Assembly (NCBI GenBank): GCA_032622095.1
Contig: CP136062.1
Span: forward strand, 5,518,001-5,582,000
DNA length: 64,000 bases
Direction: 5' to 3'
DNA from: Siphonodentalium dalli
Lineage: Eukaryota > Mollusca > Scaphopoda > Gadilida > Siphonodentaliidae
The position numbers and the translations under genes are program-made. Shown in pieces: positions 38,341-63,429 of this stretch (its first letter is position 1; each line of letters begins with the position of its first letter). The notes below the pieces were generated by a model. That model worked only from the letters and a program-made list of their open reading frames with translations, was not told the origin of the DNA and did no database searches.

Positions 38341-38464
38341 AAAATGTGAATCGGTTAAATTGTAATTTCTTAACACAACGTATGAAGTCCTACACACTAG
38401 ACAGTACTATGTTGATATGTATAAACGTGGTGTTACACGCTGATTTCAAAATCATTAGACTAAT

Positions 38465-38680
38465 TATACTTCCATGGTGTAACCAAGGAAGTATATTGTT
38501 TTTCTACTGCGGCCGTTTTCTGTTTAATTGGAAATACTCAGAAACTAATGGGAGGAGGACCGCGAAATCTCTAGAGAATGAAGGCATCTAAGGTCTACTA
38601 AAAATAATGGTATCCGGATGTTGGTCCAATATCTTTTGACAGAGTTATGGCCCTTTTTCGATTATTTTTCATTATTATTA
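38465..38680 (+). repeat. Hairpin-headed module at the left edge of the 1250-bp array
   Basis: The module opens with TACTTCCATGG-TGTAA-CCAAGGAAGTA, an 11-bp-arm hairpin with one mismatch. It runs through CTACTGCGGCCGTTTTCTG and GGAGGAGGACCGC, then ends in GAGTTATGGCCCTTTTTCG and a CATTATTATTATAC linker. Near-identical copies lie at 56411-56624 and 56625-56840, in the second array. Sequence to its left is unrelated, so it marks the array's left boundary. Confidence 0.85.
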
Positions 38681-41600
38681 TACTTCCATATTTTAACATG
38701 GATGTATATTGTTATTCAATTTTTTATTTTTATTTTTCATTATTTATTCTACTTCTTCTTAATATATTTTGTAACCCTTATATCTCAGAAAGTTAAAAAG
38801 ATAAATCATTGAAATTTGGTAGGTATATGCAACTTGCCAAGTTACAACTGAATGAAACATTTAGGTTTATGTCCTAACTTGCTTTCCAGAGTTATGGCCC
38901 TTAATCAAAAATTTTGGAAAAAGTTTGTGCCCAGATCTTCTCCTATAAGAAGCCAAGCAGCTGAATTCGGGTTACGTAACCATGTTAACTGACGAAAGGG
39001 TACGAATCGGGGAAATTTTCACCAAGGTCCGAAATCAATTTGTTGAACTGGGGAGGGGTGCAAAATTTGTCAATTTTTTTCTTGTCACCGATTCCAACCA
39101 TTTTTACTGTCGTGTATCTATACGACGTACTGATGCTACTCGTGAAAGAATTTTGTAAATCGGTTGAGAAATGGCCAAGTTATAACACATCGAAAAATGT
39201 ACTAATAAAGTCCATGTGTAGAAAGTGCTTGTGCCCAGATCTTCTCCTAGACGAAGCGCAACAGCTGGATTTGGTCTATGTGAGCGTCTTAAACATAGAC
39301 AGAAGACCAAACCAGGAAATTTTGACAAAGGTCCGCTCAAATTTTTCCGGGCTAGGGGAGGGGCAAAATTTTTCAATTTTGTTTTTGTCGCCGATTTGAA
39401 CCAAAATGGTTGTGAAGTATCTATATGATGTACTGAGTGTCATTGTGAGTGAATTTTATGAATCGGTTGACAAATGTAGAAATTGTGGCCCCTTCCTTTT
39501 GTTCAAGTTTACAGAAAATGCACTATGAATTTAAATTCCTTCAACCGATCGTCACGTGTTTGGTGTCATTCGATGGGGAATTTCTAGTACTTCAAAACGA
39601 TTACCTACTTGCGGTATTATGACGATGGAGGCCGGAGATATTCGAAAAGTATGTACTGAACAACATACATATTGGCCTACATAGTAGAATATCGCCACAA
39701 TACCTTACCAAAACCCTGCTAAATATTAAAGGGGCATCGAATATGAACACAATGACGCAAAAATTATCTCGATATCGCGAAAATTGGCCGAGATATGGCA
39801 AATTTTCTACCCGCGTCACCAAATTTCGAGGCATGGGTGGGGGTCACACCAGAACGTTCCAACTGAACACAGAAATGTCAATAAACTATACTATAGACAT
39901 TCCATTCAATTCCGCGCGATTCCCTTATTATACTTCCATATTTTAATATGGATGTATATTGTTATTCAATTTTTTATTTTTATTTTTCATTATTTATTCT
40001 ACTTCTTCTTAATATATTTTGTAACCCTTATATCTCAGAAAGTTAAAAAGATAAATCATTGAAATTTGGTAGGTATATGCACCTTGCCAAGTTACAACTG
40101 AATGAAACATTTAGGTTTATGTCCTAACTTGCTTTCCAGAGTTATGGCCCTTAATCAAAAAATTTGGAAAAAGTTTGTGCCCAGATCTTCTCCTATAAGA
40201 AGCCAAGCAGCTGAATTCGGGTTACGTAACCGTGTTAACTGACGAAAGGGTACGAATCGGGGAAATTTTCACCAAGGTCCGAAATCAATTTGTTGAACTG
40301 GGGAGGGGTGCAAAATTTGTCAATTTTTTTCTTGTCACCGATTCCAACCATTTTTACTGTCGTGTATCTATACGACGTACTGATGCTACTCGTGAAAGAA
40401 TTTTGTAAATCGGTTGAGAAATGGCCAAGTTATAACACATCGAAAAATGTACTAATAAAGTCCATGTGTAGAAAGTGCTTGTGCCCAGATCTTCTCCTAG
40501 ACGAAGCGCAACAGCTGGATTTGGTCTATATGAGCGTCTTAAACATAGACAGAAGACCAAACCAGGAAATTTTGACAAAGGTCCGCTCAAATTTTTCCGG
40601 GCTAGGGGAGGGGCAAAATTTTTCAATTTTGTTTTTGTCGCCGATTTGAACCAAAATGGTTGTGAAGTATCTATATGATGTACTGAGTGTCATTGTGAGT
40701 GAATTTTATGAATCGGTTGAAAATGTAGAAATTGTGGCCCCTTCCTTTTGTTCAAGTTTACAGAAAATGCACTATGAATTTAAATTCCTTCAACCGATCG
40801 TCACGTGTTTGGTGTCATTCGATGGGGAATTTCTAGTACTTCAAAACGATTACCTACTTGCGGTATTATGACGATGGAGGCCGGAGATATTCGAAAAGTA
40901 TGTACTGAACAACATACATATTGGCCTACATAGTAGAATATCGCCACAATACCTTACCAAAACCCTGCTAAATATTAAAGGGGCATCGAATATGAACACA
41001 ATGACGCAAAAATTATCTCGATATCGCGAAAATTGGCCGAGATATGGCAAATTTTCTACCCGCGTCACCAAATTTCGAGGCATGGGTGGGGGTCACACCA
41101 GAACGTTCCAACTGAACACAGAAATGTCAATAAACTATACTATAGACATTCCAATCAATTCCGCGCGATTCCCTTATTATACTTCCATATTTTAATATGG
41201 ATGTATATTGTTATTCAATTTTTTATTTTTATTTTTCATTATTTATTCTACTTCTTCTTAATATATTTTGTAACCCTTATATCTCAGAAAGTTAAAAAGA
41301 TAAATCATTGAAATTTGGTAGGTATATGCACCTTGCCAAGTTACAACTGAATGAAACATTTAGGTTTATGTCCTAACTTGCTTTCCAGAGTTATGGCCCT
41401 TAATCAAAAATTTTGGAAAAAGTTTGTGCCCAGATCTTCTCCTATAAGAAGCCAAGCAGCTGAATTCGGGTTACGTAACCGTGTTAACTGACGAAAGGGT
41501 ACGAATCGGGGAAATTTTCAACAAGGTCCGAAATCAATTTGTTGAACTGGGGAGGGGTGCAAAATTTGTCAATTTTTTTCTTGTCACCGATTCCAACCAT

Positions 41601-44600
41601 TTTTACTGTCGTATATCTATACGACGTACTGATGCTACTCGTGAAAGAATTTTGTAAATCGGTTGAGAAATGGCCAAGTTATAACACATCGAAAAATGTA
41701 CTAATAAAGTCCATGTGTAGAAAGTGCTTGTGCCCAGATCTTCTCCTAGACGAAGCGCAACAGCTGGATTTGGTCTATGTGAGCGTCTTAAACATAGACA
41801 GAAGACCAAACCAGGAAATTTTGACAAAGGTCCGCTCAAATTTTTCCGGGCTAGGGAGGGGCAAAATCTTTCAATTTTGTTTTTGTCGCCGATTTGAACC
41901 AAAATGGTTGTGAAGTATCTATATGATGTACTGAGTGTCATTGTGAGTGAATTTTATGAATCGGTTGACAAATGTAGAAATTGTGGCCCCTTCCTTTTGT
42001 TTAAGTTTACAGAAAATGCACTATGAATTTAAATTCCTTCAACCGATCGTCACGTGTTTGGTGTCATTCGATGGGGAATTTCTAGTACTTCAAAACGATT
42101 ACCTACTTGCGGTATTATAACGATGGAGGCCGGAGATATTCGAAAAGTATGTACTGAACAACATACATATTGGCCTACATAGTAGAATATCGCCACAATA
42201 CCTTACCAAAACCCTGCTAAATATTAAAGGGGCATCGAATATGAACACAATGACGCAAAAATTATCTCGATATCGCGAAAATTGGCCGAGATATGGCAAA
42301 TTTTCTACCCGCGTCACCAAATTTCGAGGCATGGGTGGGGGTCACACCAGAACGTTCCAACTGAACACAGAAATGTCAATAAACTATACTATAGACATTC
42401 CAATCAATTCCGCGCGATTCCCTTATTATTCTTCCATATTTTAATATGGATGTATATTGTTATTCAATTTTTTATTTTTATTTTTCATTATTTATTCTAC
42501 TTCTTCTTAATATATTTTGTAACCCTTATATCTCAGAAAGTTAAAAAGATAAATCATTGAAATTTGGTAGGTATATGCACCTTGCCAAGTTACAACTGAA
42601 TGAAACATTTAGGTTTATGTCCTAACTTGCTTTCCAGAGTTATGGCCCTTAATCAAAAAATTTGGAAAAAGTTTGTGCCCAGATCTTCTCCTATAAGAAG
42701 CCAAGCAGCTGAATTCGGGTTACGTAACCGTGTTAACTGACGAAAGGGTACGAATCGGTGAAATTTTCAACAAGGTCCGAAATCAATTTGTTGAACTGGG
42801 GAGGGGTGCAAAATTTGTCAATTTTTTTCTTGTCACCGATTCCAACCATTTTTACTGTCGTGTATCTATACGACGTACTGATGCTACTCGTGAAAGAATT
42901 TTGTAAATCGGTTGAGAAATGGCCAAGTTATAACACATCGAAAAATGTACTAATAAAGTCCATGTGTAGAAAGTGCTTGTGCCCAGATCTTCTCCTAGAC
43001 GAAGCGCAACAGCTGGATTTGGTCTATGTGAGCGTCTTAAACATAGACAGAAGACCAAACCAGGAAATTTTGACAAAGGTCCGCTCAAATTTTTCCGGGC
43101 TAGGGAGGGGCAAAATTTTTCAATTTTGTTTTTGTCGCCGATTTGAACCAAAATGGTTGTGAAGTATCTATATGATGTACTGAGTGTCATTGTGAGTGAA
43201 TTTTATGAATCGGTTGACAAATGTAGAAATTGTGGCCCCTTCCTTTTGTTCAAGTTTACAGAAAATGCACTATGAATTTAAATTCCTTCAACCGATCGTC
43301 ACGTGTTTGGTGTCATTCGATGGGGAATTTCTAGTACTTCAAAACGATTACCTACTTGCGGTATTATGACGATGGAGGCCGGAGATATTCGAAAAGTATG
43401 TACTGAACAACATACATATTGGCCTACATAGTAGAATATCGCCACAATACCTTACCAAAACCCTGCTAAATATTAAAGGGGCATCGAATATGAACACAAT
43501 GACGCAAAAATTATCTCGATATCGCGAAAATTGGCCGAGATATGGCAAATTTTCTACCCGCGTCACCAAATTTCGAGGCATGGGTGGGGGTCACACCAGA
43601 ACGTTCCAACTGAACACAGAAATGTCAATAAACTATACTATAGACATTCCAATCAATTCCGCGCGATTCCCTTATTATACTTCCATATTTTAATATGGAT
43701 GTATATTGTTATTCAATTTTTTATTTTTATTTTTCATTATTTATTCTACTTCTTCTTAATATATTTTGTAACCCTTATATCTCAGAAAGTTAAAAAGATA
43801 AATCATTGAAATTTGGTAGGTATATGCATCTTGCCAAGTTACAACTGAATGAAACATTTAGGTTTATGTCCTAACTTGCTTTCCAGAGTTATGGCCCTTA
43901 ATCAAAAAATTTGGAAAAAGTTTGTGCCCAGATCTTCTCCTATAAGAAGCCAAGCAGCTGAATTCGGGTTACGTAACCGTGTTAACTGACGAAAGGGTAC
44001 GAATCGGGGAAATTTTCAACAAGGTCCGAAATCAATTTGTTGAACTGGGGAGGGGTGCAAAATTTGTCAATTTTTTTCTTGTCACCGATTCCAACCATTT
44101 TTACTGTCGTATATCTATACGACGTACTGATGCTAATCGTGAAAGAATTTTGTAAATCGGTTGAGAAATGGCCAAGTTATAACACATCGAAAAATGTACT
44201 AATAAAGTCCATGTGTAGAAAGTGCTTGTGCCCAGATCTTGTCCTAGACGAAGCGCAACAGCTGGATTTGGTCTATGTGAGCGTCTTAAACATAGACAGA
44301 AGACCAAACCAGGAAATTTTGACAAAGGTCCGCTCAAATTTTTCCGGGTTAGGGGAGGGGCAAAATTTTTCAATTTTGTTTTTGTCGCCGATTTGAACCA
44401 AAATGGTTGTGAAGTATCTATATGATGTACTGAGTGTCATTGTGAGTGAATTTTATGAATCGGTTGACAAATGTAGAAATTGTGGCCCCTTCCTTTTGTT
44501 CAAGTTTACAGAAAATGCACTATGAATTTAAATTCCTTCAACCGATCGTCACGTGTTTGGTGTCATTCGATGGGGAATTTCTAGTACTTCAAAACGATTA

Positions 44601-47600
44601 CCTACTTGCGGTATTATGACGATGGAGGCCGGAGATATTCGAAAAGTATGTACTGAACAACATACATATTGGCCTACATAGTAGAATATCGCCACAATAC
44701 CTTACCAAAACCCTGCTAAATATTAAAGGGGCATCGAATATGAACACAATGACGCAAAAATTATCTCGATATCGCGAAAATTGGCCGAGATATGGCAAAT
44801 TTTCTACCCGCGTCACCAAATTTCGAGGCATGGGTGGGGGTCACACCAGAACGTTCCAACTGAACACAGAAATGTCAATAAACTATACTATAGACATTCC
44901 AATCAATTCCGCGCGATTCCCTTATTATACTTCCATATTTTAATATGGATGTATATTGTTATTCAATTTTTTATTTTTATTTTTCATTATTTATTCTACT
45001 TCTTCTTAATATATTTTGTAACCCTTATATCTCAGAAAGTTAAAAAGATAAATCATTGAAATTTGGTAGGTATATGCACCTTGCCAAGTTACAACTGAAT
45101 GAAACATTTAGGTTTATGTCCTAACTTGCTTTCCAGAGTTATGGCCCTTAATCAAAATTTTTGGAAAAAGTTTGTGCCCAGATCTTCTCCTATAAGAAGC
45201 CAAGCAGCTGAATTCGGGTTACGTAACCGTGTTAACTGACGAAAGGGTACGAATCGGGGAAATTTTCACCAAGGTCCGAAATCAATTTGTTGAACTGGGG
45301 AGGGGTGCAAAATTTGTCAATTTTTTTCTTGTCACCGATTCCAACCATTTTTACTGTCGTGTATCTATACGACGTACTGATGATACTCGTGAAAGAATTT
45401 TGTAAATCGGTTGAGAAATGGCCAAGTTATAACACATAGAAAAATGTACTAATAAAGTCCATGTGTAGAAAGTGCTTGTGCCCAGATCTTCTCCTAGACG
45501 AAGCGCAACAGCTGGATTTGGTCTATGTGAGCGTCTTAAACATAGACAGAAGACCAAACCAGGAAATTTTGACAAAGGTCCGCTCAAATTTTTCCGGGCT
45601 AGGGGAGGGGCAAAATTTTTCAATTTTGTTTTTGTCGCCGATTTGAACCAAAATGGTTGTGAAGTATCTATATGATGTACTGAGTGTCATTGTGAGTGAA
45701 TTTTATGAATCGGTTGACAAATGTAGAAATTGTGGCCCCTTCCTTTTGTTCAAGTTTACAGAAAATGCACTATGAATTTAAATTCCTTCAACCGATCGTC
45801 ACGTGTTTGGTGTCATTCGATGGGGAATTTCTAGTACTTCAAAACGATTACCTACTTGCGGTATTATGACGATGGAGGCCGGAGATATTCGAAAAGTATG
45901 TACTGAACAACATACATATTGGCCTACATAGTAGAATATCGCCACAATACCTTACCAAAATCCTGCTAAATATTAAAGGGGCATCGAATATGAACACAAT
46001 GACGCAAAAATTATCTCGATATCGCGAAAATTGGCCGAGATATGGCAAATTTTCTACCTGCGTCACCAAATTTCGAGGCATGGGTGGGGGTCACACCAGA
46101 ACGTTCCAACTGAACACAGAAATGTCAATAAACTATACTATAGACATTCCAATCAATTCCGCGCGATTCCCTTATTATACTTCCATATTTTAATATGGAT
46201 GTATATTGTTATTCAATTTTTTATTTTTATTTTTCATTATTTATTCTACTTCTTCTTAATATATTTTGTAACCCTTATATCTCAGAAAGTTAAAAAGATA
46301 AATCATTGAAATTTGGTAGGTATATGCACCTTGCCAAGTTACAACTGAATGAAACATTTAGGTTTATGTCCTAACTTGCTTTCCAGAGTTATGGCCCTTA
46401 ATCAAAATTTTTGGAAAAAGTTTGTGCCCAGATCTTCTCCTATAAGAAGCCAAGCAGCTGAATTCGGGTTACATAACCGTGTTAACTGACGAAAGGGTAC
46501 GAATCGGGGAAATTTTCACCAAGGTCCGAAATCAATTTGTTGAACTGGGGAGGGGTGCACAATTTGTCAATTTTTTTCTTGTCACCGATTCCAACCATTT
46601 TTACTGTCGTGTATCTATACGACGTACTGATGCTACTCGTGAAAGAATTTTGTAAATCGGTTGAGAAATGGCCAAGTTATAACACATCGAAAAATGTACT
46701 AATAAAGTCCATGTGTAGAAAGTGCTTGTGCCCAGATCTTCTCCTAGACGAAGCGCAACAGCTGGATTTGGTCTATGTGAGCGTCTTAAACATAGACAGA
46801 AGACCAAACCAGGAAATTTTGACAAAGGTCCGCTCAAATTTTTCCGGGCTAGGGGAGGGGCAAAATTTTTCAATTTTGTTTTTGTCGCCGATTTGAACCA
46901 AAATGGTTGTGAAGTATCTATATGATGTACTGAGTGTCATTGTGAGTGAATTTTATGAATCGGTTGACAAATGTAGAAATTGTGGCCCCTTCCTTTTGTT
47001 CAAGTTTACAGAAAATGCACTATGAATTTAAATTCCTTCAACCGATCGTCACGTGTTTGGTGTCATTCGATGGGGAATTTCTAGTACTTCAAAACGATTA
47101 CCTACTTGCGGTATTATGACGATGGAGGCCGGAGATATTCGAAAAGTATGTACTGAACAACATACATATTGGCCTACATAGTAGAATATCGCCACAATAC
47201 CTTACCAAAACCCTGCTAAATATTAAAGGGGCATCGAATATGAACACAATGACGCAAAAATTATCTCGATATCGCGAAAATTGGCCGAGATATGGCAAAT
47301 TTTCTACCCGCGTCACCAAATTTCGAGGCATGGGTGGGGGTCACACCAGAACGTTCCAACTGAACACAGAAATGTCAATAAACTATACTATAGACATTCC
47401 AATCAATTCCGCGCGATTCCCTTATTATACTTCCATATTTTAATATGGATGTATATTGTTATTCAATTTTTTATTTTTATTTTTCATTATTTATTCTACT
47501 TCTTCTTAATATATTTTGTAACCCTTATATCTCAGAAAGTTAAAAAGATAAATCATTGAAATTTGGTAGGTATATGCATCTTGCCAAGTTACAACTGAAT

Positions 47601-50600
47601 GAAACATTTAGGTTTATGTCCTAACTTGCTTTCCAGAGTTATGGCCCTTAATCAAAAAATTTGGAAAAAGTTTGTGCCCAGATCTTCTCCTATAAGAAGC
47701 CAAGCAGCTGAATTCGGGTTACGTAACCGTGTTAACTGACGAAAGGGTACGAATCGGGGAAATTTTCAACAAGGTCCGAAATCAATTTGTTGAACTGGGG
47801 AGGGGTGCAAAATTTGTCAATTTTTTTCTTGTCACCGATTCCAACCATTTTTACTGTCGTATATCTGTACGACGTACTGATGCTAATCGTGAAAGAATTT
47901 TGTAAATCGGTTGAGAAATGGCCAAGTTATAACACATCGAAAAATGTACTAATAAAGTCCATGTGTAGAAAGTGCTTGTGCCCAGATCTTGTCCTAGACG
48001 AAGCGCAACAGCTGGATTTGGTCTATGTGAGCGTCTTAAACATAGACAGAAGACCAAACCAGGAAATTTTGACAAAGGTCCGCTCAAATTTTTCCGGGTT
48101 AGGGGAGGGGCAAAATTTTTCAATTTTGTTTTTGTCGCCGATTTGAACCAAAATGGTTGTGAAGTATCTATATGATGTACTGAGTGTCATTGTGAGTGAA
48201 TTTTATGAATCGGTTGACAAATGTAGAAATTGTGGCCCCTTCCTTTTGTTCAAGTTTACAGAAAATGCACTATGAATTTAAATTCCTTCAACCGATCGTC
48301 ACGTGTTTGGTGTCATTCGATGGGGAATTTCTAGTACTTCAAAACGATTACCTACTTGCGGTATTATGACGATGGAGGCCGGAGATATTCGAAAAGTATG
48401 TACTGAACAACATACATATTGGCCTACATAGTAGAATATCGCCACAATACCTTACCAAAACCCTGCTAAATATTAAAGGGGCATCGAATATGAACACAAT
48501 GACGCAAAAATTATCTCGATATCGCGAAAATTGGCCGAGATATGGCAAATTTTCTACCCGCGTCACCAAATTTCGAGGCATGGGTGGGGGTCACACCAGA
48601 ACGTTCCAACTGAACACAGAAATGTCAATAAACTATACTATAGACATTCCAATCAATTCCGCGCGATTCCCTTATTATACTTCCATATTTTAATATGGAT
48701 GTATATTGTTATTCAATTTTTTATTTTTATTTTTCATTATTTATTCTACTTCTTCTTAATATATGTTGTAACCCTTATATCTCAGAAAGTTAAAAAGATA
48801 AATCATTGAAATTTGGTAGGTATATGCACCTTGCCAAGTTACAACTGAATGAAACATTTAGGTTTATGTCCTAACTTGCTTTCCAGAGTTATGGCCCTTA
48901 ATCAAAATTTTTGGAAAAAGTTTGTGCCCAGATCTTCTCCTATAAGAAGCCAAGCAGCTGAATTCGGGTTACGTAACCGTGTTAACTGACGAAAGGGTAC
49001 GAATCGGGGAAATTTTCACCAAGGTCCGAAATCAATTTGTTGAACTGGGGAGGGGTGCAAAATTTGTCAATTTTTTTCTTGTCACCGATTCCAACCATTT
49101 TTACTGTCGTGTATCTATACGACGTACTGATGATACTCGTGAAAGAATTTTGTAAATCGGTTGAGAAATGGCCAAGTTATAACACATAGAAAAATGTACT
49201 AATAAAGTCCATGTGTAGAAAGTGCTTGTGCCCAGATCTTCTCCTAGACGAAGCGCAACAGCTGGATTTGGTCTATGTGAGCGTCTTAAACATAGACAGA
49301 AGACCAAACCAGGAAATTTTGACAAAGGTCCGCTCAAATTTTTCCGGGCTAGGGGAGGGGCAAAATTTTTCAATTTTGTTTTTGTCGCCGATTTGAACCA
49401 AAATGGTTGTGAAGTATCTATATGATGTACTGAGTGTCATTGTGAGTGAATTTTATGAATCGGTTGACAAATGTAGAAATTGTGGCCCCTTCCTTTTGTT
49501 CAAGTTTACAGAAAATGCACTATGAATTTAAATTCCTTCAACCGATCGTCACATGTTTGGTGTCATTCGATGGGGAATTTCTAGTACTTCAAAACGATTA
49601 CCTACTTGCGGTATTATGACGATGGAGGCCGGAGATATTCGAAAAGTATGTACTGAACAACATACATATTGGCCTACATAGTAGAATATCGTCACAATAC
49701 CTTACCAAAATCCTGCTAAATATTAAAGGGGCATCGAATATGAACACAATGACGCAAAAATTATCTCGATATCGCGAAAATTGGCCGAGATATGGCAAAT
49801 TTTCTACCTGCGTCACCAAATTTCGAGGCATGGGTGGGGGTCACACCAGAACGTTCCAACTGAACACAGAAATGTCAATAAACTATACTATAGACATTCC
49901 AATCAATTCCGCGCGATTCCCTTATTATACTTCCATATTTTAATATGGATGTATATTGTTATTCAATTTTTTATTTTTATTTTTCATTATTTATTCTACT
50001 TCTTCTTAATATATTTTGTAACCCTTATATCTCAGAAAGTTAAAAAGATAAATCATTGAAATTTGGTAGGTATATGCACCTTGCCAAGTTACAACTGAAT
50101 GAAACATTTAGGTTTATGTACTAACTTGCTTTCCAGAGTTATGGCCCTTAATCAAAATTTTTGGAAAAAGTTTGTGCCCAGATCTTCTCCTATAAGAAGC
50201 CAAGCAGCTGAATTCGGGTTACGTAACCGTGTTAACTGACGAAAGGGTACGAATCGGGGAAATTTTCACCAAGGTCCGAAATCAATTTGTTGAACTGGGG
50301 AGGGGTGCACAATTTGTCAATTTTTTTCTTGTCACCGATTCCAACCATTTTTACTGTCGTGTATCTATACGACGTACTGATGCTACTCGTGAAAGAATTT
50401 TGTAAATCGGTTGAGAAATGGCCAAGTTATAACACATAGAAAAATGTACTAATAAAGTCCATGTGTAGAAAGTGCTTGTGCCCAGATCTTCTCCTAGACG
50501 AAGCGCAACAGCTGGATTTGGTCTATGTGAGCGTCTTAAACATAGACAGAAGACCAAACCAGGAAATTTTGACAAAGGTCCGCTCAAATTTTTCCGGGCT

Positions 50601-51817
50601 AGGGGAGGGGCAAAATTTTTCAATTTTGTTTTTGTCGCCGATTTGAACCAAAATGGTTGTGAAGTATCTATATGATGTACTGAGTGTCATTGTGAGTGAA
50701 TTTTATGAATCGGTTGACAAATGTAGAAATTGTGGCCCCTTCCTTTTGTTCAAGTTTACAGAAAATGCACTATGAATTTAAATTCCTTCAACCGATCGTC
50801 ACGTGTTTGGTGTCATTCGATGGGGAATTTCTAGTACTTCAAAACGATTACCTACTTGCGGTATTATGACGATGGAGGCCGGAGATATTCGAAAAGTATG
50901 TACTGAACAACATACATATTGGCCTACATAGTAGAATATCGCAACAATACCTTACCAAAACCCTGCTAAATATTAAAGGGGCATCGAATATGAACACAAT
51001 GACGCAAAAATTATCTCGATATCGCGAAAATTGGCCGAGATATGGCAAATTTTCTACCTGCGTCACCAAATTTCGAGGCATGGGTGGGGGTCACACCAGA
51101 ACGTTCCAACTGAACACAGAAATGTCAATAAACTATACTATAGACATTCCAATCAATTCCGCGCGATTCCCTTATTATACTTCCATATTTTAATATGGAT
51201 GTATATTGTTATTCAATTTTTTATTTTTATTTTTCATTATTTATTCTACTTCTTCTTAATATATTTTGTAACCCTTATATCTCAGAAAGTTAAAAAGATA
51301 AATCATTGAAATTTGGTAGGTATATGCATCTTGCCAAGTTACAACTGAATGAAACATTTAGGTTTATGTCCTAACTTGCTTTCCAGAGTTATGGCCCTTA
51401 ATCAAAAATTTTGGAAAAGGTTTGTGCCCAGATCTTCTCCTATAAGAAGCCAAGCAGCTGAATTCGGGTTACGTAACCGTGTTAACTGACGAAAGGGTAC
51501 GAATCGGGGAAATTTTCACCAAGGTCCGAAATCAATTTGTTGAACTGGGGAGGGGTGCAAAATTTGTCAATTTTTTTCTTGTCACCGATTCCAACCATTT
51601 TTACTGTCGTGTATCTATACGACGTACTGATGCTATTCGTGAAAGAATTTTGCAAATCGGTTGAGAAATGGCCAAGTTATAACACATCGAAAAATGTACT
51701 AATAAAGTCCATGTGTAGAAAGTGATTGTGCCCAGATCTTCTCCTAGACGAAGCGCAACAGCTGGATTTGGTCTATGTGAGCGTCTTAAACATAGACAGA
51801 AGACCAAACCAGGAAAT
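38675..51817 (+). repeat. 1250-bp tandem array: ten full units plus a 646-bp partial
   Basis: Units begin at TTATTATACTTCCATATTTT at 38675, 39925, 41174, 42423, 43672, 44922, 46172, 47422, 48672, 49922 and 51172. The last stops at 51817, after AGGAAAT. Each starts with a hairpin (TACTTCCATATT / AATATGGATGTA). Each contains GAGTTATGGCCCTT and two diverged sub-modules of about 304 bp, both beginning TGCCCAGATCTTCTCCTA. Units are about 99% identical by eye. Frames of 60-134 codons recur in every unit, on both strands, only because the DNA is nearly identical. They are broken by 1-bp indels (units 2-4) and a stop (units 6, 9 and 10), so no protein is under evident constraint. Confidence 0.98.
43672..51171 (+). 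repeat. Nested three-unit (3.75-kb) duplication within the array
   Basis: Diagnostic variants pair unit 5 with 8, 6 with 9, and 7 with 10. Units 5 and 8 share GCTAATCGTG, CTTGTCCTAG and GGGTTAGGGG. Units 6 and 9 share GATACTCGTG, ACACATAGA and ACCTGCGTC. Units 7 and 10 share GTGCACAATTT. Unit 10 also carries the ACACATAGA and ACCTGCGTC variants of units 6 and 9, so it looks recombinant. Each triplet is 3750 bp: 43672-47421 and 47422-51171. Confidence 0.9.
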
Positions 51818-54192
51818 GCGAATGTCAAAAATTACACCAATGACCACTGTCAATATATTTCAACATCCATTCTTTTTTTCGCGCACTGTGTTAATTGTTA
51901 TGTTGGCTAATGGGTAATCACTCAAAACAATGTCGGCTGTCTGTCTTGTCAATCGGCCATGATTCTGCAGTTTTATCATGATGCGGCTTAAAAATGGCAT
52001 ATTTTGAGACCAAAAACGGTCAAAATTTGCTAGTTTTTAAATAGTAGTTCGTTTTGTTTTCACTTATTTTAAAACGCGCATTTACGAAACTGTGGTGTCA
52101 GCCGGATAATGTTATAACACTTCTCCGCATGGACCACGTTTTCCTAAAGCACAATCCGTCTATGCGCGGACTTTCGCTTGCAGTTCTCAATTCAATTGAA
52201 ACTATTTGATATCCGTTCGCGTACCCGTAAACCATTTTTTTTATATTATATTTTTTAATTGAATGAACGGGAGTCAGCGTGTCCCGACCGACGCCCCAAC
52301 CTTGCCACCCCTTAGTCGCTAATTTTGGTATCATAATTTCGGAACGTGACACTTTGCGGTTTGGTATTGGTTTACCATCTGACATAGTGCATACTTTTGT
52401 CGAATTCAGATCTGACCATTTAAAAACTGTCTCTTTATCATCTGTATGTGTCACGAGTGAAAATATATGACTTTATTGTCCGACTGTTAAGACCGCCGAT
52501 TGCATATTTCGCATTAATTGGACGAGACGTAATGTAAAGTCTTATAACTTACGCATAGGCGACAACGTCGACGTCGTACATTCGTCCGCTAATCGGAAAA
52601 TATACCAAAAATGCCTTAAAGCGCCGTCTAATTCACCACCTGCGTGTATTCAAGAATATGAATCACACCAAAATTAAGCGAATTGCATATGGAATGTGTA
52701 GGTATAAGCTGCCATGTATATATCATTTCCAGAATGCTACCATTTCATGACAATCTATTTGTTAAAATAAAACACCTTAAACTGTTGGGAACATCGCGAT
52801 ATAGGCAAGCGAGCAAAGAGAGTTTAATGTCATCGTACCATACGCTATTTCGCTGTTGCGAAATGGGTGGTCGTTCAATGTAGCATAATTACATTGAACG
52901 ACATATATAAGTATGTTTTTGTGTGAATAATGATTGTTAACTTGGTATTATGAATTTATGCATGACTGTGAAGACTTGCAATAACGTATTAAATGGTAAA
53001 ATACGCGCATTCATATCCGTATATTCCCAAGAATGTCCGTCTATTTTACAAGCTCGACATGCTATATTTGTTTATGGTATACTACCGTTTCAACACATCG
53101 GCTATTTATCATTTTGCTGGTGAGAAGGCGTATGTTCAGTTTGGTGCTATTTATGTGCACAGAAAAGGCACCATTACTCGGGAAAGCAACATACCGAAAT
53201 GCATATAGATATACGCGAATCATGTTACGTTCTCACACAATGCAGCTTTCCCAAATCTGTGCTCTTTAAAATAGAATTGGCTGCATGACTGGCCTACTTC
53301 TGATGGCACAGTGTGTTACGCACCTGTCCGATTAAGTCGCTTTGAACCCAAAATGTATACAAAATTCGCACAAGCTGTGGAAAAGTTCGCGATCTTGGAC
53401 AGTCAGTACAATCGGTATAAACGTTTGTAACGACATAACGTGTCTTGACAGCATTACCTGTTATGCTATATTGATATGTTTATAAATTATATTTAATGCT
53501 TGATTCCTGATACACATATATAGTGACATTTCAGTGATCTTCTAGAACGTTCCCGAGCATGATAGAACTTCAAATAAAACATATTCGCCTTTGTCCCATT
53601 CTGGTGATTTGGGCTCTTTCTTAGCATGTTACTAATTTTATAATAAGACGTAATCAAGACATGTGTTATCAGTTGTGTAAGTGATTGCCATTCGCGCATA
53701 ATTATTTCATAAATAAATATATCCGCTGCACGTAGATATAACCGTCACTTATATTACTAGCCGTTGAAATCACTGACCCGACAAACTGATAAACCAAGAC
53801 TTAACAGTCTTGGCAAATTACAGATCGGCATTGATTTAAAACTTCGCACTTCATTGTGGACAGACTATAACTATCCGTATCTTTCACAGAATATACCATC
53901 CCATGGCATTGCAGTTATAATTTTTAACATTTCAAGTCTTTAATTTGGAATATAGGCACAAGAGATAGTGTACACATGTGTGTATGTATACTAATAAAAC
54001 CGAACTGTGTGTGTGTTCATTTGTTTGTCAGTCTGACCTGCTGTTGGTGACCAACCGGTTGGATCATGACAAAAATAAAATTGGAACACACGGTGAATTG
54101 TTACGTGGAGTGTCATGGGATAGGTACATCTGACATCATGTGATTAAATTTGGAATTCATGAATAATTTAAAAACATTTTTACATCTATATC
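51818..54192. other. Single-copy flank, no supported gene
   Basis: Outside the 118-codon frame described separately, frames are 60-78 codons and not recognised. On the minus strand a short ATG frame (MYDVDVVAYA) near 52557-52586 runs into GC|GTAAGTT, an isolated donor-like site. No tandem repeats were noticed. A (TG)n-like TGTGTGTGTG lies near 54007. Confidence 0.35.
52098..52454 (-). CDS. Unrecognised 118-codon ORF
   Basis: This is the longest frame outside clear repeats. It begins MTHTDDKETVFKWSDLNST and has a Gly/Trp-rich stretch (TKGWQGWGVGRDTL) in the middle and basic residues throughout. No signal peptide, membrane segment or known motif is visible, and no splice sites obviously bracket it. 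It may be chance, or part of an unrecognised transposon. It lies 280 bp beyond the right edge of the 1250-bp array. Confidence 0.15.
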   Translation of the reverse strand: MTHTDDKETVFKWSDLNSTKVCTMSDGKPIPNRKVSRSEIMIPKLATKGWQGWGVGRDTLTPVHSIKKYNIKKMVYGYANGYQIVSIELRTASESPRIDGLCFRKTWSMRRSVITLSG

Positions 54193-54194
54193 TA

Positions 54195-54364
54195 CAGTAT
54201 ACCCTAAGTAATCGACTCCTTAAACATAGCAGAATTATGGGTAACATTTCAGGATTTAGTGGGAAATATAGCCTGTTGACATTCATTCGAAAGCTCTCCT
54301 GAATCCCGAAAAGTTACACATAATTCTGCTGTGTTTAAGGGGTCGATTACATAGGGCATTACTG
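54195..54364. mobile_element. 170-bp MITE with TA target duplication (Tc1/mariner-like)
   Basis: The termini CAGTATACCCTAAGTAATCG and its complement at 54345-54364 form arms of about 50 bp with few mismatches (pairing continues through CTTAAACATAGCAGAATTATG). TA dinucleotides flank both ends (54193-54194 and 54365-54366). A CAGT terminus with TA duplication is the signature of Tc1/mariner-type elements. With no room for a transposase it is a non-autonomous MITE. High arm identity suggests recent activity. Confidence 0.85.
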
Positions 54365-54856
54365 TATATTTCCGAATTTTTGTCTCTCTGCCTGTGTCTG
54401 TCTTCTATAAAAATTACAGGAGACCATCTAGATGATACCAAAGGGGTCTACTAGGGGTCACTTTTTACGAGAAATATAATTTCAAAAGTAGCCTCATTCT
54501 TCATCTTTTATTTTTGCGAACTAATGTGTTTATGATGTTCATGAAGTATGCATGGTTGTAACTAAATAAATACTTCAATAGTTGTGGAACGGATTAATCG
54601 AGATAAACAAAATTACGATCGAAAAGATGAGCCACTACTTATATTCCATGACTTTTTAAAGTTATAGATATAGTTAGAATGATTGTGGTTATGGTTACGC
54701 TAGAGCATGGTTATGCTTATAAAACATTTAGTATTGGGACATGGTACGTGTTGCCGATAGGTATGGTTATGATTAAGGTTTGGGTTATGGGAAAGGTAAT
54801 GATTGAGAGGAGATTTGGATAGGAATATATATGATAATTATATATATGGAAGTATC

Positions 54857-54876
54857 AAACTTCCAATTGGAAGTTT
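54857..54876. repeat. Perfect 20-bp palindrome at the left edge of the second array
   Basis: AAACTTCCAATTGGAAGTTT is exactly self-complementary and sits about 12 bp before the (TTA)n linker that opens the composite array. Its ACTTCC/GGAAGT core is the same as in the hairpin of the 215-bp modules. Confidence 0.85.
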
Positions 54877-55510
54877 AAAACTTCTAGTTATTATTATTAT
54901 TATACTGGACACTTTTGCAACCCTTATTACTCTAAAAGTAACAGGAGTAGCACACTAAAACTTGGTACGTATCTTGTGATCACAGAGTTGTATGCCATCG
55001 TCGCATAACGAATATTGTCCGCATTTTCCCCGAGGAGTTATCTCCCTTTATCTGAAAAAATGTCATTTGATTATCTCGGAAATTATAAGGAGCAGAGCAT
55101 CGAAAATTGGACTGTATGCACATCTCGATATGCCCTACTGCCCACGGGCATCAGAACATGTGTCCGCGCTTTCCCTGAGGAGTTACCGCCCATAGTTGGC
55201 AAACCTCTATTTGATTGTACTCTGTTGTCCTCTTGTATCATTCCAGATAACTGCATGTGGTTTTCATAGTCGTGTTGACCGTTGTCAGTTTAGTCAGAGA
55301 AGGAAAATTTGACAGGGTCGGACATATATTTTGACACTGGGGTGGGGGGCAAATTTTTTGAAAAATAAAATTTTGATTGACATTCATATATTTAAGTTTA
55401 TGTATTTCCCGAACGAAAACAAACTCAAACCGGAAAGGATTTTTGAAATCCGAGAAGAAATGCAAGAGTTACGGGCCCTCAAAGTTTGCAATTTGGGACC
55501 ATGTGCTTGA

Positions 55511-56010
55511 TAACACATCTCCTCCGAAGATATCGAACATAGGATGTCATCTGATACGCCAATGTGTGCGGACTGAAGAGGGCACGCGGTGGGCTAAATT
55601 TTGCCAGTGTCGGTTCATTATTGTGGGTCTGGGGAGGGGTGGTCCGTGGTACCAATTTTTAATTCTTCTCGGAATCAGATGAAACTTGGAATATAACATT
55701 TGCAACATCAGCCGATCTAGAAAGTGAAAGAATTTCGAAAATCCATCAAAAACTGAAAGAATTGCGGCCCTCAAACTTTGCAATTTTGGGCCCGTGTGCT
55801 TGATAACACATCTCCTCCGAAGATATCGAACATAGTATGTCATCTGATACGAAAATGCGTACGGACTGAAGACGGCACGCGGTGGGCCAAATTTTTCCAG
55901 TGTCGGTTCAGTATTGTGGGTCTGGGGAGGGGCGGTCCGTGGTACCAATTTTTAATTCTTCTCGGAATCGGATTAAACTTGGAATATAACATTTGCAACA
56001 TCAGCCGATC
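55511..56010 (+). repeat. 294-bp modules of unit 1 (two copies)
   Basis: TAACACATCTCCTCCGAAGA starts at 55511 and 55804 (293 bp apart). The module continues through GGGCACGCGGTGGGC, GGGTCTGGGGAGGGG, GGTCCGTGGTACCAATTTTT and GATGAAACTTGGAATATAAC. It ends where the more diverged module with ATGGCGGAGATTTT begins. Confidence 0.9.
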
Positions 56011-56410
56011 TGGAAGCTGAAAACAGATCGTAAATCCGTTGAAAAATGGCGGAGATTTTGGCCGTCCAAGTTTTAATTTGGGCCCATATGCTTTCCAATA
56101 ATCAAAGTGTTATCCGTCTCCAAATCAGATGAAATTTATACTATGCAATCTATGTTAGCAGCAAATCACAAAACTGGAAACAATTTTAAAATCCGTTGGA
56201 AACTAACGGAGTTACGGGGCCTCAAACTTAGCATTTTGTGCCAGGGGTTGATGTTTTCCCAATCCCGTCACCCAATTTAGAGGCAGGGGTGGGGTCACGT
56301 CCAAACACTTGAGATCAACCTACACATGTTAGGACAACATATAATCACCATACTTTATATTTTACGTCCATAAAGTGCGATTCTTTTCACTCATGATTGT
56401 TCCTATTATT

Positions 56411-56840
56411 ATACTTCCATGGTGTAACCAAGGAAGTATATTGTTTTTCTACTGCGGCCGTTTTCTGTTTAATTGGAAATACTCAGAAACTAATGGGAGG
56501 AGGACCGCGAAATCTCTTGAGAATGAAGGCATCTAAGGTCTACTAAAAATAATGGTATCCGGATGTTGGTCCAATATCTTTTGACAGAGTTATGGCCCTT
56601 TTTCGATTATTTTTCATTATTATTATACTTCCATGGTGTAACCAAGGAAGTATATTGTTTTTCTACTGCGGCCGTTTTCAGTTTAATTGGAAATACTCAT
56701 AAACTAATGGGAGGAGGACCGCAAAATCTCTAGCGAATGTAGGCATCTAAGGTCTACTAAAAATAATGGTATCCGGATGTTGGTCCAATATCTTTTGACA
56801 GAGTTATGGCCCTTTTTCGATTATTTTTCATTATTATTAT
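56411..56840 (+). repeat. Two tandem copies of the hairpin module
   Basis: Copies at 56411-56624 and 56625-56840 (214 bp apart) are nearly identical to 38465-38680. They differ by scattered substitutions such as CTCTTGAGAATGAAGG, CTCTAGCGAATGTAGG and CTCTAGAGAATGAAGG. The second leads directly into unit 2 through a (TTA)n linker. Confidence 0.9.
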
Positions 56841-57453
56841 TATTATACTGGACACTTTTGCAACCCTTATTACTCGAAAAGTACCAGGATTAGCACACTG
56901 AAACTTGGTACGTATCTTGGGATCAGAGAATTGTATGCCATCGTCGCATAACGAATATTGTCCGCGTTTTCTCCGAGGAGTTATCTCCCTTTATCTGAAA
57001 AAATGTCATTTTATTATCTCGGAAATTATAAGGAGCAGAGCATCGAAAATTGGACTGTATGCACACCTCGATATGTTCTACTTCCCACGGGCATCAGAAC
57101 TTGTGTCCGCGCTTTCCCTGAGGAGTTACCGCCCATAGTTGGCAAACCTCTATTTGATTGTACTCTGTTGTCCTCTTGTATCATTCAAGATAACTGCATG
57201 TGGTTTTCATAGACGTGTTGACCGTTGTCAGTTTAGTCAGAGAAGGAAAATTTGACAGGGTCGGACATATATTTTGACACTGGGGTGGGGGGCAAATTTT
57301 TTGAAAAATAAAATTTTGATTGACATTTATATATTTAAGTTTATTTATTTCCCGAACGAAAACAAACTCATACCGGAAAGGATTTTTGAAATCCGAGAAG
57401 AAATGCAAGAGTTATGGGCCCTCAAAGTTTGCAATTTGGGCCCATGTGCTTGA

Positions 57454-58520
57454 TAACACATCTCCTCCGAAGATATCGAACATAGGATATCATCTGATAC
57501 GCCAACGTGTGCGGACGGAAGAGAGCACGCGGTGGGCCAAATTTTGCCAGTGTCTGTTCATTATTGTGGGTCTGGGGAGGGGTGGTCCGTGGTACCAATT
57601 TTTAATTCTTCTCCGAATCAGATGAAACTTGGAATATAACATCTCCAACATCAGTCGATCTAGAAATTGAAAGAATTTCGAAAATCCATCGAAAACTGAC
57701 ATAATTGCAGGCCCTCAAACTTTGCAATTTTGGACCCATGTGCTTGATAACACATCTCCTCCGAAGATATCGAACATAGGATGTCATCTGATACGAAAAT
57801 ACGTACGGACTGAAGAGGGCACGCGGTGGGCCAAATTTTGCCAGTGTCGGTTCAGTATTGTGGGTCTGGGGAGGGGTGGTCCGTGGTACCAATTTTTAAT
57901 TCTTCTCCGAATCAGATGAAACTTGGAATATAACATCTCCAACATCAGTCGATCTAGAAATTGAAAGAATTTCGAAAATCCATCGAAAACTGACATAATT
58001 GCGGGCCCTCAAACTTTGCAATTTTGGACCCATGTGCTTGATAACACATCTCCTCCGAAGATATCGAACATAGGATGTCATCTGATACGAAATTACGTAC
58101 GGACTGAAGAGGGCACGCGGTGGGCCAAATTTTGCCAGTGTCGGTGCAGTATTGTGGGTCTGGGGAGGGGTGGTCCATGGTACCAATTTTTAATTCTTTT
58201 CCGAATCGGATGAAACTTGGAATATAACATCTGCAACCTCAGCCGATCTAGAAACTGAAAGAATTATGAAAATCCATCGAAAACTGAAAGAATTGCGGGC
58301 CCTCAAACTTTGCAATTTTGGCCCATGTGCTTGATAACACATCTTTTCCGAAGATATCGAACCTAGGATGTAATCTGCTACGATAATCCGTACGGACTGA
58401 AGAGGGCACGCGGTGGGTGTAATTTTTCCAGTGTCGGTTCAGTATTGTGGGTCAAGGGAGGGGTAGTCCGTGGTACCATTTTTGTATTCTTCTCCGAATC
58501 AGATGAAACTTGGAATGTAA
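57454..58520 (+). repeat. 294-bp modules of unit 2 (four copies)
   Basis: TAACACATCTCCTCCGAAGA-type starts lie at 57454, 57748, 58042 and 58335. The first three are the most alike; the fourth reads TCTTTTCCGAAGA and is more diverged. The spacing is 293-294 bp. The extra copies explain why unit 2 is longer than units 1 and 3. Confidence 0.92.
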
Positions 58521-58933
58521 CATCTACCATATACGTTGATCACGAAGCTGAAAACAGATCGTAAATCCGTGTAAAAATGGCGGAGATTTTAGCCATCCAA
58601 TTTTGAATTTGGGCCCATATGCTTTCCAATAACCAAATTGTTATTCGGGTCCAAATCAGATGAAATTTATACTATGAAATCTAGGTCAGCGGCAGATTGC
58701 AAAACTGAAAACAATTTTTAAATCCGTTGGAAACTAACGGAGTTACGGGCCCTCAAACTTCGCATTTTGTGCCAGGGTTGATGTTTTCCCAATCCCGTCA
58801 CCCAATTTCGAGGTAGGGTGGGGTCACGTCCAAACACTTGAGATCAACCTACACATGTTAGGACAACATATACTCACCATACTTCATATTTTCCGTCCCG
58901 AAACTTCGATTCTTTCCACTCATGATTTTCCCT

Positions 58934-59165
58934 ATTATTATACTTCCATGGTGTAACCAAGGAAGTCGATTGTTTTTGTACTGGTGCCGTTTTTCGTTTA
59001 TATGGAAATACCCAAAAAGTAATTGCACTAGAAAGACGAAACCTGTAGTAAATATGTAGGCATCTGAGGTCTACTAATAATAAAGGTATCCGCATGTCGG
59101 TCCAATGTTTCTTGGCGGAGTTATGGCCCTTTTACGATTATTTTTCACTATTATTATTATTATAC
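58934..59165 (+). repeat. Diverged hairpin module closing unit 2
   Basis: TACTTCCATGGTGTAACC then AAGGAAGT at 58940-58968 has the hairpin, but the body reads ACTGGTGCCGTTTTTCG and GTAATTGCACTAGAAAGACG, unlike the 56.4-kb form. The same form recurs at 60650-60859. It again ends in GAGTTATGGCCCTTTTACG and a (TTA)n linker. Confidence 0.85.
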
Positions 59166-59756
59166 TCAACACTTTTGCAACGCCCAAATCTCTGAAAGTA
59201 TTAGGATTAGAAAACTGAAGGTTGGTAAGTATGTTGGGGTAAATGAGTTCTATGCCTTTGGCTCATAACGAATATTGTCCGCGATTACCCCGCGGAGTTA
59301 TCTCCCTTTATATGAAAACATGTCATTTTATTATCTCGGAAATTATAAGGAGCAGAGCATCGAAAATTGGACCGTATGCACAACTCGATATGCCCTACTG
59401 CCCACGGGCATCAAAACTTGTGTCCGCGCTTTACCTGATGAGTTACCGCCCATAAATAGGCAAATCTCTATTTGATTTGCTATGATGTACTCATTCCAGA
59501 TAACTGCATTTGGATTTCATAGTCGTGTTGACCGTTGTCAGTTTAGTCTGAGAAAGAAAATTGAACAGGGTCGGACATATATTTTGACGTTGGGGTGGGG
59601 GCAAAATTTTCGAGAAATAAAGTTTTGATTGACATTCATCTATTTCAGTATGTGGATTCCCCGAACGAAAACAAACCCACACCGGAAAGGAGTTTTGAAA
59701 TCCGAGAAGAAATGCAAGAGTTACGGGCCCTCAAAGTTTGCAATTTGGGCCCATGT

Positions 59757-60240
59757 GCTTGTGACCACATCTCCTCAGATGTCGAAGTTTGGATGTCAAC
59801 TGATACGCCAACGTGTGCGGACGGAAGAGGGCACGCGGTGGGCCAAATTTTGACAGTGTCGGTTCATTATTGTGGGTCTGGGGAGGGCTGGTCCGTGGTA
59901 CCAATTTTGTATTCTTCTCCGAATCAGATGAAACTTGGAATATAACATCTGCAACATCAGCCGATCTAGAAACTGAAAGAACTTCGAAAATCCATCGAAA
60001 ACTGAAATAATTGCAGGCCGTCAAACTTTGCAATTTTGGGCCCATGTGCTTGTGACCACATCTCCTCCGAAGATATCGAACATACGATGTCATCTGAAAT
60101 GCAAATGTGTGCGGACTGAAGAGGGCACGCGGTGGGCCAAATTTTGACTGTGTCGGTTCATTATTGTGGGTCTGGGGAGGGCTGGTCCGTGGTACCAAAA
60201 TCCGAATCAGATGAAACTTGGAATATAACATCTGCAACAT
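59757..60240 (+). repeat. 294-bp modules of unit 3 (two copies)
   Basis: Here the start reads GTGACCACATCTCCTC (59760 and 60051) instead of GATAACACATCTCCTC. The first copy has a short deletion after CTCC, and the second lacks part of the TTTTTAATTCTTCTC stretch. A long minus-strand frame spans both modules without any protein signature. Confidence 0.85.
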
Positions 60241-60649
60241 CAGCCGATCTCGAAGCTGAAAACAGATCGTGAATCCGTTGGAAAATGGCGGAGATTTTAG
60301 CAGTCAAGTTTGAATTTGGGCCCATAATTATGCTTTCCAATAGTCAAAGTGTTATCCGTCTCCAAATGAAATTTACACTATGCAATCTATGTCAGCAGCA
60401 AATCACAAAACTGGATACAATTTTAAAATCCGTTGGAAACTAACGGAGTTACAGGGCCTCAAAATTAGCATTTTGTGCCAGGGGTTGATGTTTTCCCAAT
60501 CCCGTCACCCAATTTCGAGGCAGGGGTGTGGTCACGTCCAAACACTTGAGATCAGCTTACACATGTTAGGACAACATATAATCACCATACTTCATATTTT
60601 CCGTCCATAAACTGCGATTCTGTCCACTCATGATTGTTCCTATTATTAT

Positions 60650-60859
60650 ACTTCCATGGTGTAACCAAGGAAGTATATTGTTTTTGTACTGGTGCCTTTT
60701 TCGTTTATTTGGAAATACCCAAAAAGTAATTGCACTAGAAAGACGAAACCTGTAGTGAATATGTAGGCATCTGAGGTCTACTAAAAATAAAGGTATCCAA
60801 TGTTTCTTGGCGGAGTTATGGCCCTTTTACGATTATTTTTCACTATTATTATTATTATA
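60650..60859 (+). repeat. Diverged hairpin module closing unit 3
   Basis: Matches 58934-59165, with a small deletion (GGTATCCAATGTTTCTTGG instead of a longer GGTATCCGCATG stretch). It is followed at 60860 by the start of truncated unit 4, which stops at about 61149. Confidence 0.85.
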
Positions 60860-61249
60860 CTCAACACTTTTGCAACGCCCAAATCTCTGAAAGTATTAGG
60901 ATTAGAAAACTGAAGGTTGGTATGTATGTTGGGGTAAATGAGTGCTATGCCTTTGGCTCATAACGAATATTGTCCGCGATTACCCCGCGAAGTTATCTCC
61001 CTTTATATAAAAACATGTCATTTTATTATCTCGGAAATTATAAGGAGCAGAGCATCGAAAATTGGACCGTATGCACACCTCGATATGCCCTACTGCCCAC
61101 GGGCATCAAAACTTGTGTCCGCGCTTTACCGGATGAGTTACCGCCCATACATAGAGACACACTATACACCAGGATGAATAAACCAATTTTCTTTTTTCTT
61201 CTTTTTTTTTAGTACAGAGCTCTACATTTTGTATTGCATATTCCGAATT

Positions 61250-62940: not shown

Positions 62941-63180
62941 AATCTAGCCAGGATGCCCGGGGATGACCGAGATTACACCGTCATTCCCCAACGTTGGATA
63001 TGGATCAATCATTCATTCGGAATCTAGCCAGGATGCTGGGAATGACCGGGATTGCACCGTCATTCTCCAACGTTGGATATGGACCAATCATTCATTCGGA
63101 ATCTAGCCAGGATGCACGGGAATGACCGGGATTTCACCGTATTTCTCTAACGTTTGATAAGGATCCATCAATCATTCGGA
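62941..63180. repeat. 80-bp tandem repeat, three copies
   Basis: AATCTAGCCAGGATGC starts at 62941, 63021 and 63100. Shared landmarks are GGGAATGACCGGGAT, CACCGTCATT, AACGTTGGATATGGA and CAATCATTCATTCGG. The third copy is slightly more diverged. The copies are similar enough that the array is probably young. Confidence 0.93.
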
Positions 63181-63429
63181 ACGTAGGATCAGAACTGACT
63201 CTGCAGAACTAAAAGCGTATTCTCGGATTATGACATTCCTCTGTTCCGGAACAATGTCTTGATTTGATTCGAATCATCGGCACCAGTTTCATTCTTGTTA
63301 CTTCAATGGTTATTATTCCTTTTTCACGAAAACCAATGAAACATCCTAGAAACAACCTCTGTTGTAGACTGAGTTATAGACCATAGACACATTGCAAGAC
63401 TGGTATAACTGATCTAGAAAATTGGGGGG

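Follow-up and report, generated by a model that had tools for sequence, protein, structure and literature searches.

The window, meaning the whole stretch of 64,000 nucleotides analysed here (C2:5518001–5582000), carries two tandem arrays that belong to a rolling-circle transposon family with Helentron-like structure. The 5′ region of these elements is a tandem array of units, which is followed by a tail and by a 3′ end consisting of a subterminal inverted repeat (subTIR), a palindrome and CTAG. In the window, one element of the family is nested in another. The best explanation overall, and one that is probably correct, is a Helentron-like family with a nested copy, self-insertion into 5′ linkers and subsequent transposition that lengthens the arrays. 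Genome searches were over the 2.23-Gb assembly of 9 contigs.

Nested elements in the window

The features of the window are as follows.

38464–62852, + strand: outer Helentron-like element; starts with TTATACTTCCATGGT and ends with CTCTAG; target ...GACTAA^TTAATTTTAG.
38464–38671, + strand: H module, which forms the outer element's 5′ terminus; contains subTIR ATACTTCCATGGT and the complementary arm (hairpin); ends with TTTTTCA.
38672–54887, + strand: inner element, nested, with a length of 16,216 bp; comprises mini-H as 5′ terminus, the 1250-bp array, a tail and a type-B 3′ end; cut at TTTTTCA^TTATT.
38675–51817, + strand: 1250-bp array (array 1); unit consisting of mini-H and a core with two modules of about 300 bp; the last unit halts at unit base 646.
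51818–54845, + strand: 3′ tail of the inner element (the 3-kb gap of the original prediction); in loci L008 and L010 the same tail starts straight after unit base 646.
54846–54887, + strand: type-B 3′ end of the inner element; 3′ subTIR ATGGAAGTATC, palindrome AAACTTCCAATTGGAAGTTT, and AAAACTTCTAG followed by TT.
54888–56407, + strand: outer core, resuming after the inner element; opens with the linker (TTA)5 TACTGGACAC.
56408–56835, + strand: two consecutive H modules, with a 5′ terminus immediately after an H end.
56836–61154, + strand: further outer core units; diverged H copies (80–86%) at 58937 and 60645; the last core stops at A3 base ~314, as it also does in L002.
61155–62811, + strand: 3′ tail of the outer element; its final ~180 bp share 90% identity with the end of the RepHel element at C2:5319909.
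62812–62852, + strand: type-A 3′ end of the outer element; 3′ subTIR ACCATGGAAGTAT, palindrome GATTCCATGGAATC, and TGACCTCTAG followed by TT.

The outer element is a single insertion of 24.4 kb (24,389 bp), which is missing exactly from a near-identical site at C2:3865601–3866600. At this empty paralogous site, which reads ...CATTAGACTAATTAATTTTAG..., the 5′ flank shows 99.8% identity over 466 bp and the 3′ flank 98.6% over 352 bp, and the flanks join at TT. The 3′ flank of the window finds a 99% match at C2:3865710–3866057, beginning exactly after CTAG. A second empty site is provided by the 2.25-kb element of L046, which is situated in a repeat; copies of that repeat without the element (L049 and L050) read ...GAGCGTTATTTGTTACTG. 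Neither site requires a target duplication, but 2–3 bases are ambiguous: the element and its target share TT or TTA as their first letters, so that a duplication of that size may be hidden. The 5′ side at the two sites reads TTATACTTCC or TTATTATACTTCC.

Without the nested element, the outer element measures about 8.2 kb. Its 5′ subTIR ATACTTCCATGGT is complementary to its 3′ subTIR ACCATGGAAGTAT at 13 of 13 positions. The hairpin at 56404–56450 is the same as the 5′-terminal hairpin of H and folds with −9.6 kcal/mol (z = −5.0). The original prediction did not recognise H as the actual 5′ terminus.

Array 1 and the gap behind it (38672–54887) make up a second element of the family, located in the T-rich linker between the outer H and its core. 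After the first H, which ends with TTTTTCA at 38671, the order is mini-H, 1250-bp array, 3-kb tail, type-B end (54887) and TTATTATTATTATTATACTGGACAC. An uninterrupted copy of the linker at 56824 reads TTTTTCA-TTATTATTATTATTATACTGGACAC; since TTTTTCA continues there into TTATTATTATTATTATACTGGACAC, excising 38672–54887 gives an intact linker. The inner element is read as an insertion inside the outer element. The two arrays had been described as lying about 3 kb apart, and the gap between the end of array 1 and the point where array 2 resumes (54888) is indeed about 3.07 kb; the arrays are not neighbours, however, but represent two elements, one nested in the other.

The inner tail contains only one stop-to-stop open reading frame of 120 aa or more (124 aa, − strand, 52098). 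Searches for known RNA genes gave no tRNA or tmRNA (ARAGORN) and no Rfam match at gathering scores. The H/mini-H junction of the window has 24 other scored matches spanning at least 225 of its 231 bases, with 40 of 1,533 candidates scored; among these the best other copy is 95% identical, and a recently common H/mini-H composite was not found. The H/H junction at 56408/56622 is read as a candidate accretion scar, with the same form as the outer/inner junction.

Units common to the two arrays

Units of both arrays have a common layout, in which a hairpin module on the 5′ side (H of 215 bp, or mini-H, which is shorter) precedes a T-rich (TTA)n linker and a core made of modules of about 300 bp. 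Array 1 has 10 full units of 1249–1250 bp each and a further 646 bp, with unit starts from 38675 to 51172 and an end near 51817. The hairpin module of about 215 bp that had been said to border array 1 and to occur twice in array 2 is confirmed. The copy at 38463 shows identities of 96.9 and 97.7% by blastn with those at 56408 and 56622, or 100 and 98% by global alignment.

The assignment of both arrays to one modular superfamily also holds. A profile of six array-2 modules gives 22.7–27.9 bits on module a of array 1 (11 of 11 copies; shuffle maximum 14.5, n = 1001) and 10.1–14.1 bits on module b (10 of 10 copies; shuffle maximum 3.0, n = 1010). These controls retained the GGGAGGGG anchor and replaced plain shuffles because the modules had been picked by that shared anchor; the scores are those of whole profiles, not of the single words CTCCT, CCGAAT and GTTGAAAA. 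The reverse profiles are weaker. Module a gives 12.4–20.5 bits on all six array-2 modules and module b 4.5–9.1 bits on five of the six, the lowest score being matched in each case by 1 of 1002 shuffles. Three other GGGAGGGG sites in the window show no profile match. A collinear chain between one 1250-bp unit and two array-2 units scores 274.5 and 281.5 bits, with maxima of 192.1 and 156.2 in 60 shuffles, and at L003 and L011 both unit types are found within one array. The lack of profile similarity that had been named as speaking against a single superfamily is not what was seen, the array-2 profile matching all copies of modules a and b.

Among the fetched array loci, arrays stop at recurrent points, after which common tails follow. 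The stop at unit base 646 is found in the window, L008 and L010, a stop at A2 base 651 in L001, L003, L004, L005 and L006, and a stop at A3 base ~314 in the window and L002; the arrays of L007 and L009 stop at other points. The array of L047 is diverged.

3′ ends and the TT target

The tails close with a 3′ end of type A, B or C; the three types are related and consist of ATGGAAGT(A/G)T, a palindrome, and TCTAG followed by TT. From palindrome to end there are 10 bases in type A (GATTCCATGGAATC), 11 in type B (AAACTTCCAATTGGAAGTTT) and 15 in type C (AAATTGCTGTGCAATT). The type-A 25-mer with a trailing T has 1,208 exact copies in the genome; the reversed pattern has none, and copies with A, C or G as the next base are not found. 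Viral contigs contain no exact copy of the 25-mer. In 20 type-A flanks, hand-picked among 100 places listed, TT opens every one; by eye, 18 of these flanks enter other DNA and two (L017, L019) enter the family's own array.

Type-A ends at most 26 bases from a TTATACT linker end number 272, and the pattern read backwards gives 0; the pattern behind this count omits the first four letters of the 25-mer, so that the 272 are not a strict subset of the 1,208. Exact TTATTATTATTATTATACT is present in 64 of 100 listed type-A/linker junctions. With a 200-kb limit, these 100 fall into 45 loci, of which 18 have more than one junction, each of them on a single strand (hand count). The widest cluster among the places listed covers ~266 kb (C1:265.08–265.35 Mb). 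The 272 junctions do not represent 272 events, because clusters may be local amplification.

Family arrays directly behind a 3′ end were seen in 14 contexts, mostly loci chosen for their arrays, some of which may copy one event; 12 resume with the core side of the linker and two with H. The resolved starts flanked by host DNA (the window, the RepHel locus R1, L046 and L008) are H or mini-H in four of four cases, with a search pattern that itself looks for H.

RepHel partner genes

PF14214 gives at least 151 genome matches, with 150 of 457 candidates scored. Two RepHel loci, R1 and R2, carry open reading frames of 2,739 and 2,691 aa. The first RepHel open reading frame displays OTU, DUF6570, Helitron_like_N (Rep) and PIF1 domains and a sub-threshold endonuclease match. 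R1 and R2 are 98–99% identical from inside the open reading frame to the 3′ end, about 93% identical at its start and only patchily similar further upstream. Family arrays lie upstream of both open reading frames, and downstream of both is a type-C 3′ end situated directly before another family array; the close vicinity of the open reading frames alone shows no family end.

R1 extends from H at C1:214382044 to CTAG at C1:214432328, a length of 50,285 bp. Its array lies ~21 kb before the open reading frame, and these 21 kb are only patchily conserved in R2; when the stretch from the R1 array to the open reading frame was searched for exact matches to short end motifs, no further complete 3′ end or 5′ terminus came up. 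The R1 prefix consists of six A2-type units, and that of R2 of at least nine U1-type units (the fetched sequence ends inside the array) and one A2-type unit. R1 and R2 thus show unlike prefixes ahead of the same body. A third RepHel gene (2,590 aa, C2:5300867–5308636) has a type-A end behind it, located ~0.2 Mb from the window at C2:5319909; no array is present within the 8.9 kb fetched ahead of this gene.

We infer that each RepHel gene belongs to a single element with its array or end, given the order of these parts and since no other recognised end intervenes. The autonomous partner that the original prediction suggested looking for would accordingly be represented by RepHel genes that follow such an array or precede a type-A end. 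Its comparison of the arrays with non-autonomous elements is upheld as to Helentron-type features, but the arrays, as the front part of the 50-kb RepHel element R1, seem not to be confined to non-autonomous copies.

Behind the RepHel 3′ end of R1 lies a core that matches R1's own inner array at 100% and the presumed outer core at 99.5%; an origin by tandem insertion or read-through would explain this no less well than nesting does. The array that follows the RepHel end of R2 is not of the U1 type seen in the R2 prefix, which is at odds with simple nesting in place.

Comparison with known systems

By sequence, the termini, the target and most coding domains resemble those of Helentrons. Helentrons and HINEs (PMC4067079) have subTIRs of about 11–15 bp near both ends, a 3′ palindrome, a TT target without duplication, a RepHel protein with PIF1 helicase, and non-autonomous derivatives with the same ends. 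Here the subTIRs are 13 bp; the palindrome is found in types A, B and C; TT insertion is seen at the two empty sites and in the 20 of 20 flanks, with the ambiguity of 2–3 bases; and the RepHel partner with common ends is represented by the type-A end at C2:5319909 and the arrays before R1 and R2, the unity of gene and end being deduced from order. From the 3′ subTIR to the end there are 28–33 bases, compared with 38–60 in the mite HINEs described in PMC4067079.

Other features differ from that description. The 3′ end is CTAG, the kilobase units repeat the 5′ terminus itself, and the RepHel element reaches 50 kb. Rep motif 2 of Helentrons is reported to have a diagnostic S between G and P (PMC4067079); by eye, this signature before HxH is absent in P0001 (DKFRPHWH) and P0002 (ARGAKHWH). 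Exo_endo_phos is matched in two RepHel proteins with E-values of 2.5e-4 and 4.8e-5, their 21.3 and 23.7 bits being just under the curated Pfam cut-off of 24.5, and solved LINE-1 endonucleases match only at E = 0.06 and above. The family is labelled Helentron-like and is not filed as a member because the Rep signature fails and the endonuclease is under the cut-off. The Helentron-type link suggested earlier is retained as to the 13-bp subTIRs, the 3′ palindrome, CTAG followed by TT, the TT empty sites and the RepHel genes, but not as to the Rep signature.

In Cg_HINE of the Pacific oyster and in pearl (PMC7492417), satellite-like tandem repeats also occur in Helentron-type elements, with a microsatellite near the 5′ module, oligo-T targets and no target duplication, a likeness by description. 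The Cg_HINE repeats are central, between two end modules, whereas the units here include the 5′ terminus; no autonomous element could be related to Cg_HINE in that account, whereas RepHel genes are found here behind the same kind of array. Fusarium FoHeli (PMC5148889) has several 5′ termini and one 3′ terminus in common with the present family. Its duplicated part is typically <200 bp as described, in contrast to the kilobase units, the recurrent linker site and the same-strand clusters of up to about 266 kb (among the places listed) found here. Helraiser (PMC4778049) likewise has a 3′ hairpin near a CTAG end as terminator; it differs in its 5′ TC start and shorter transposase (1,496 aa), and arrays are not mentioned in the portion of that source considered. 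According to these accounts, satellite-like arrays in HINEs (PMC7492417) and multiple 5′ termini on a smaller scale (PMC5148889) are already known. The portions of the open-access literature covered contain neither kilobase 5′-terminus arrays in RepHel-bearing elements nor nesting at a fixed linker of the element's own, which is weak evidence for novelty.

Alternative explanations

Arrays behind 3′ ends would arise without any nesting if rolling-circle concatemers or circle junctions, in which a 3′ end is joined to a 5′ end, inserted head to tail in tandem. Head-to-tail circle junctions are reported for Helraiser (PMC4778049), the R1 core behind the 3′ end is identical to R1's own array, and CTAG directly followed by H is present in the two contexts of this kind (the second end of L002, and L017). 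A circle junction should, however, give CTAG and then a 5′ terminus, whereas the other 12 of the 14 contexts resume with the core side of the linker, and in the window the excision of the inner element restores an intact linker. This origin is unlikely as the general explanation. That the elements are canonical Helitrons (Helitron1) with insertion between A and T is highly improbable. Such a family would agree with 3′ ends that finish in CTAG with an upstream palindrome, like those of Helraiser (PMC4778049), and with a partner that has no Helentron Rep signature; but the 5′ side is TTATACTTCC or TTATTATACTTCC and not TC, the sampled 3′ flanks show TT in 20 of 20 cases, subterminal inverted repeats are present, and the partner open reading frame has OTU and a likely endonuclease.

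The near-identical units of array 1, with their fixed period of 1249–1250 bp, and the duplication of the flanking DNA itself are what would be expected if unequal crossing-over or segmental duplication had spread ordinary satellite DNA that happens to lie close to transposon ends. Against such an origin, which is very improbable, stand the empty sites at element ends, the common stop points and tails, and 1,208 identical 3′ ends with flanks that differ where sampled. For the arrays as insertions the satellite reading is largely refuted; unequal exchange may set the numbers of units. If the DNA is read on the minus strand, LINE- or SINE-like retroposition with 5′ truncation and a (TAA)n tail could account for (TTA)n at module starts and for arrays that halt inside a unit. 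The chance of this is negligible, because the stops recur, three loci halting at unit base 646 and five at A2 base 651, and are followed by a common tail, and because the two empty sites have no long target duplication.

Proposed mechanism and significance

A Helentron-like family with self-insertion, the preferred explanation, may work as follows. The T-rich linker (TTTTTCA^TTATTATT) would be a favoured target. Self-insertions would be locked in orientation, and clusters would be on the same strand, because the linker has TT dinucleotides on the + strand only. The transposase would then start at the leftmost 5′ terminus and stop at the first 3′ end, and the product would keep the outer units as an added prefix. 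Arrays would in this way lengthen and mix subfamilies, with H/H and H/mini-H scars remaining, and unequal exchange might afterwards homogenise the units.

A precedent is FoHeli, whose multiple 5′ termini were attributed to self-insertion and later transposition that runs from the leftmost 5′ terminus up to the first 3′ one (PMC5148889); applied to the present family, this model would add whole array units in each cycle. For Helraiser, the 3′ hairpin is reported to end transposition, and read-through past the hairpin as well as circles are reported (PMC4778049). Nesting, scars and differing prefixes are present in the DNA itself, and a ratchet with composite transposition may lie behind them. 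In its specific form, a self-insertion ratchet in which a favoured linker target of one orientation and leftmost-start, first-stop transposition give a longer mobile array, so that the family grows its own 5′ end, the proposal is tentative and somewhat doubtful. Each 5′ terminus of an array might, under this proposal, also act as a start site of its own.

A single assembly provides the arrays together with empty sites, nested copies and RepHel genes that lie behind such arrays, and a concrete route from self-insertion to array growth thereby becomes testable. This matters for how Helentron-type elements gain tandem repeats and for how satellite-like arrays spread. If true, the ratchet would build same-strand clusters of hundreds of kb and would swap 5′ prefixes between 50-kb RepHel elements.

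Tandem repeats in the window and around RepHel genes

The window carries other tandem arrays besides those of the family, as well as short repeats close to the Helentron-like outer element (window 38464-62852):

11438-14895, 47-bp tandem array, 74 copies, 98% match, strong AT skew
24704-25510, 164-bp tandem array, 5 copies, 73%
30170-31093, 209-bp tandem array, 4.4 copies, 93%
62941-63181, 79-bp repeats, three copies, shortly past the outer element

Portions of the 3′ flank of the outer element are found again at C5:224.25-224.27 Mb with a spacing of approximately 4.35 kb. Tandem repeats also accompany two genomic RepHel gene loci. R1 (L013) displays a repeat of ~174 bp about 2.7 kb past the RepHel open reading frame, within the 10-kb part downstream of it, and in R2 repeats of ~153 bp are situated upstream of the RepHel open reading frame, with matches to these present in R1.

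Host sequences of the insertions

Type-A ends, one of the types of 3′ end of the family, are found at the identical TT of one host repeat family in genomic loci L030/L046 and L048, possibly representing a duplicated insertion. By eye, the flank of a further locus, L032, resembles this host repeat family.

The host flanks of the window have a copy with 98.6–99.8% identity on the opposite strand, approximately 1.7 Mb distant (G000 C2:3865601-3866600), where the outer element is absent. Comparison of the two sequences suggests that duplication of the flanks predates the outer insertion, which would be the younger event.
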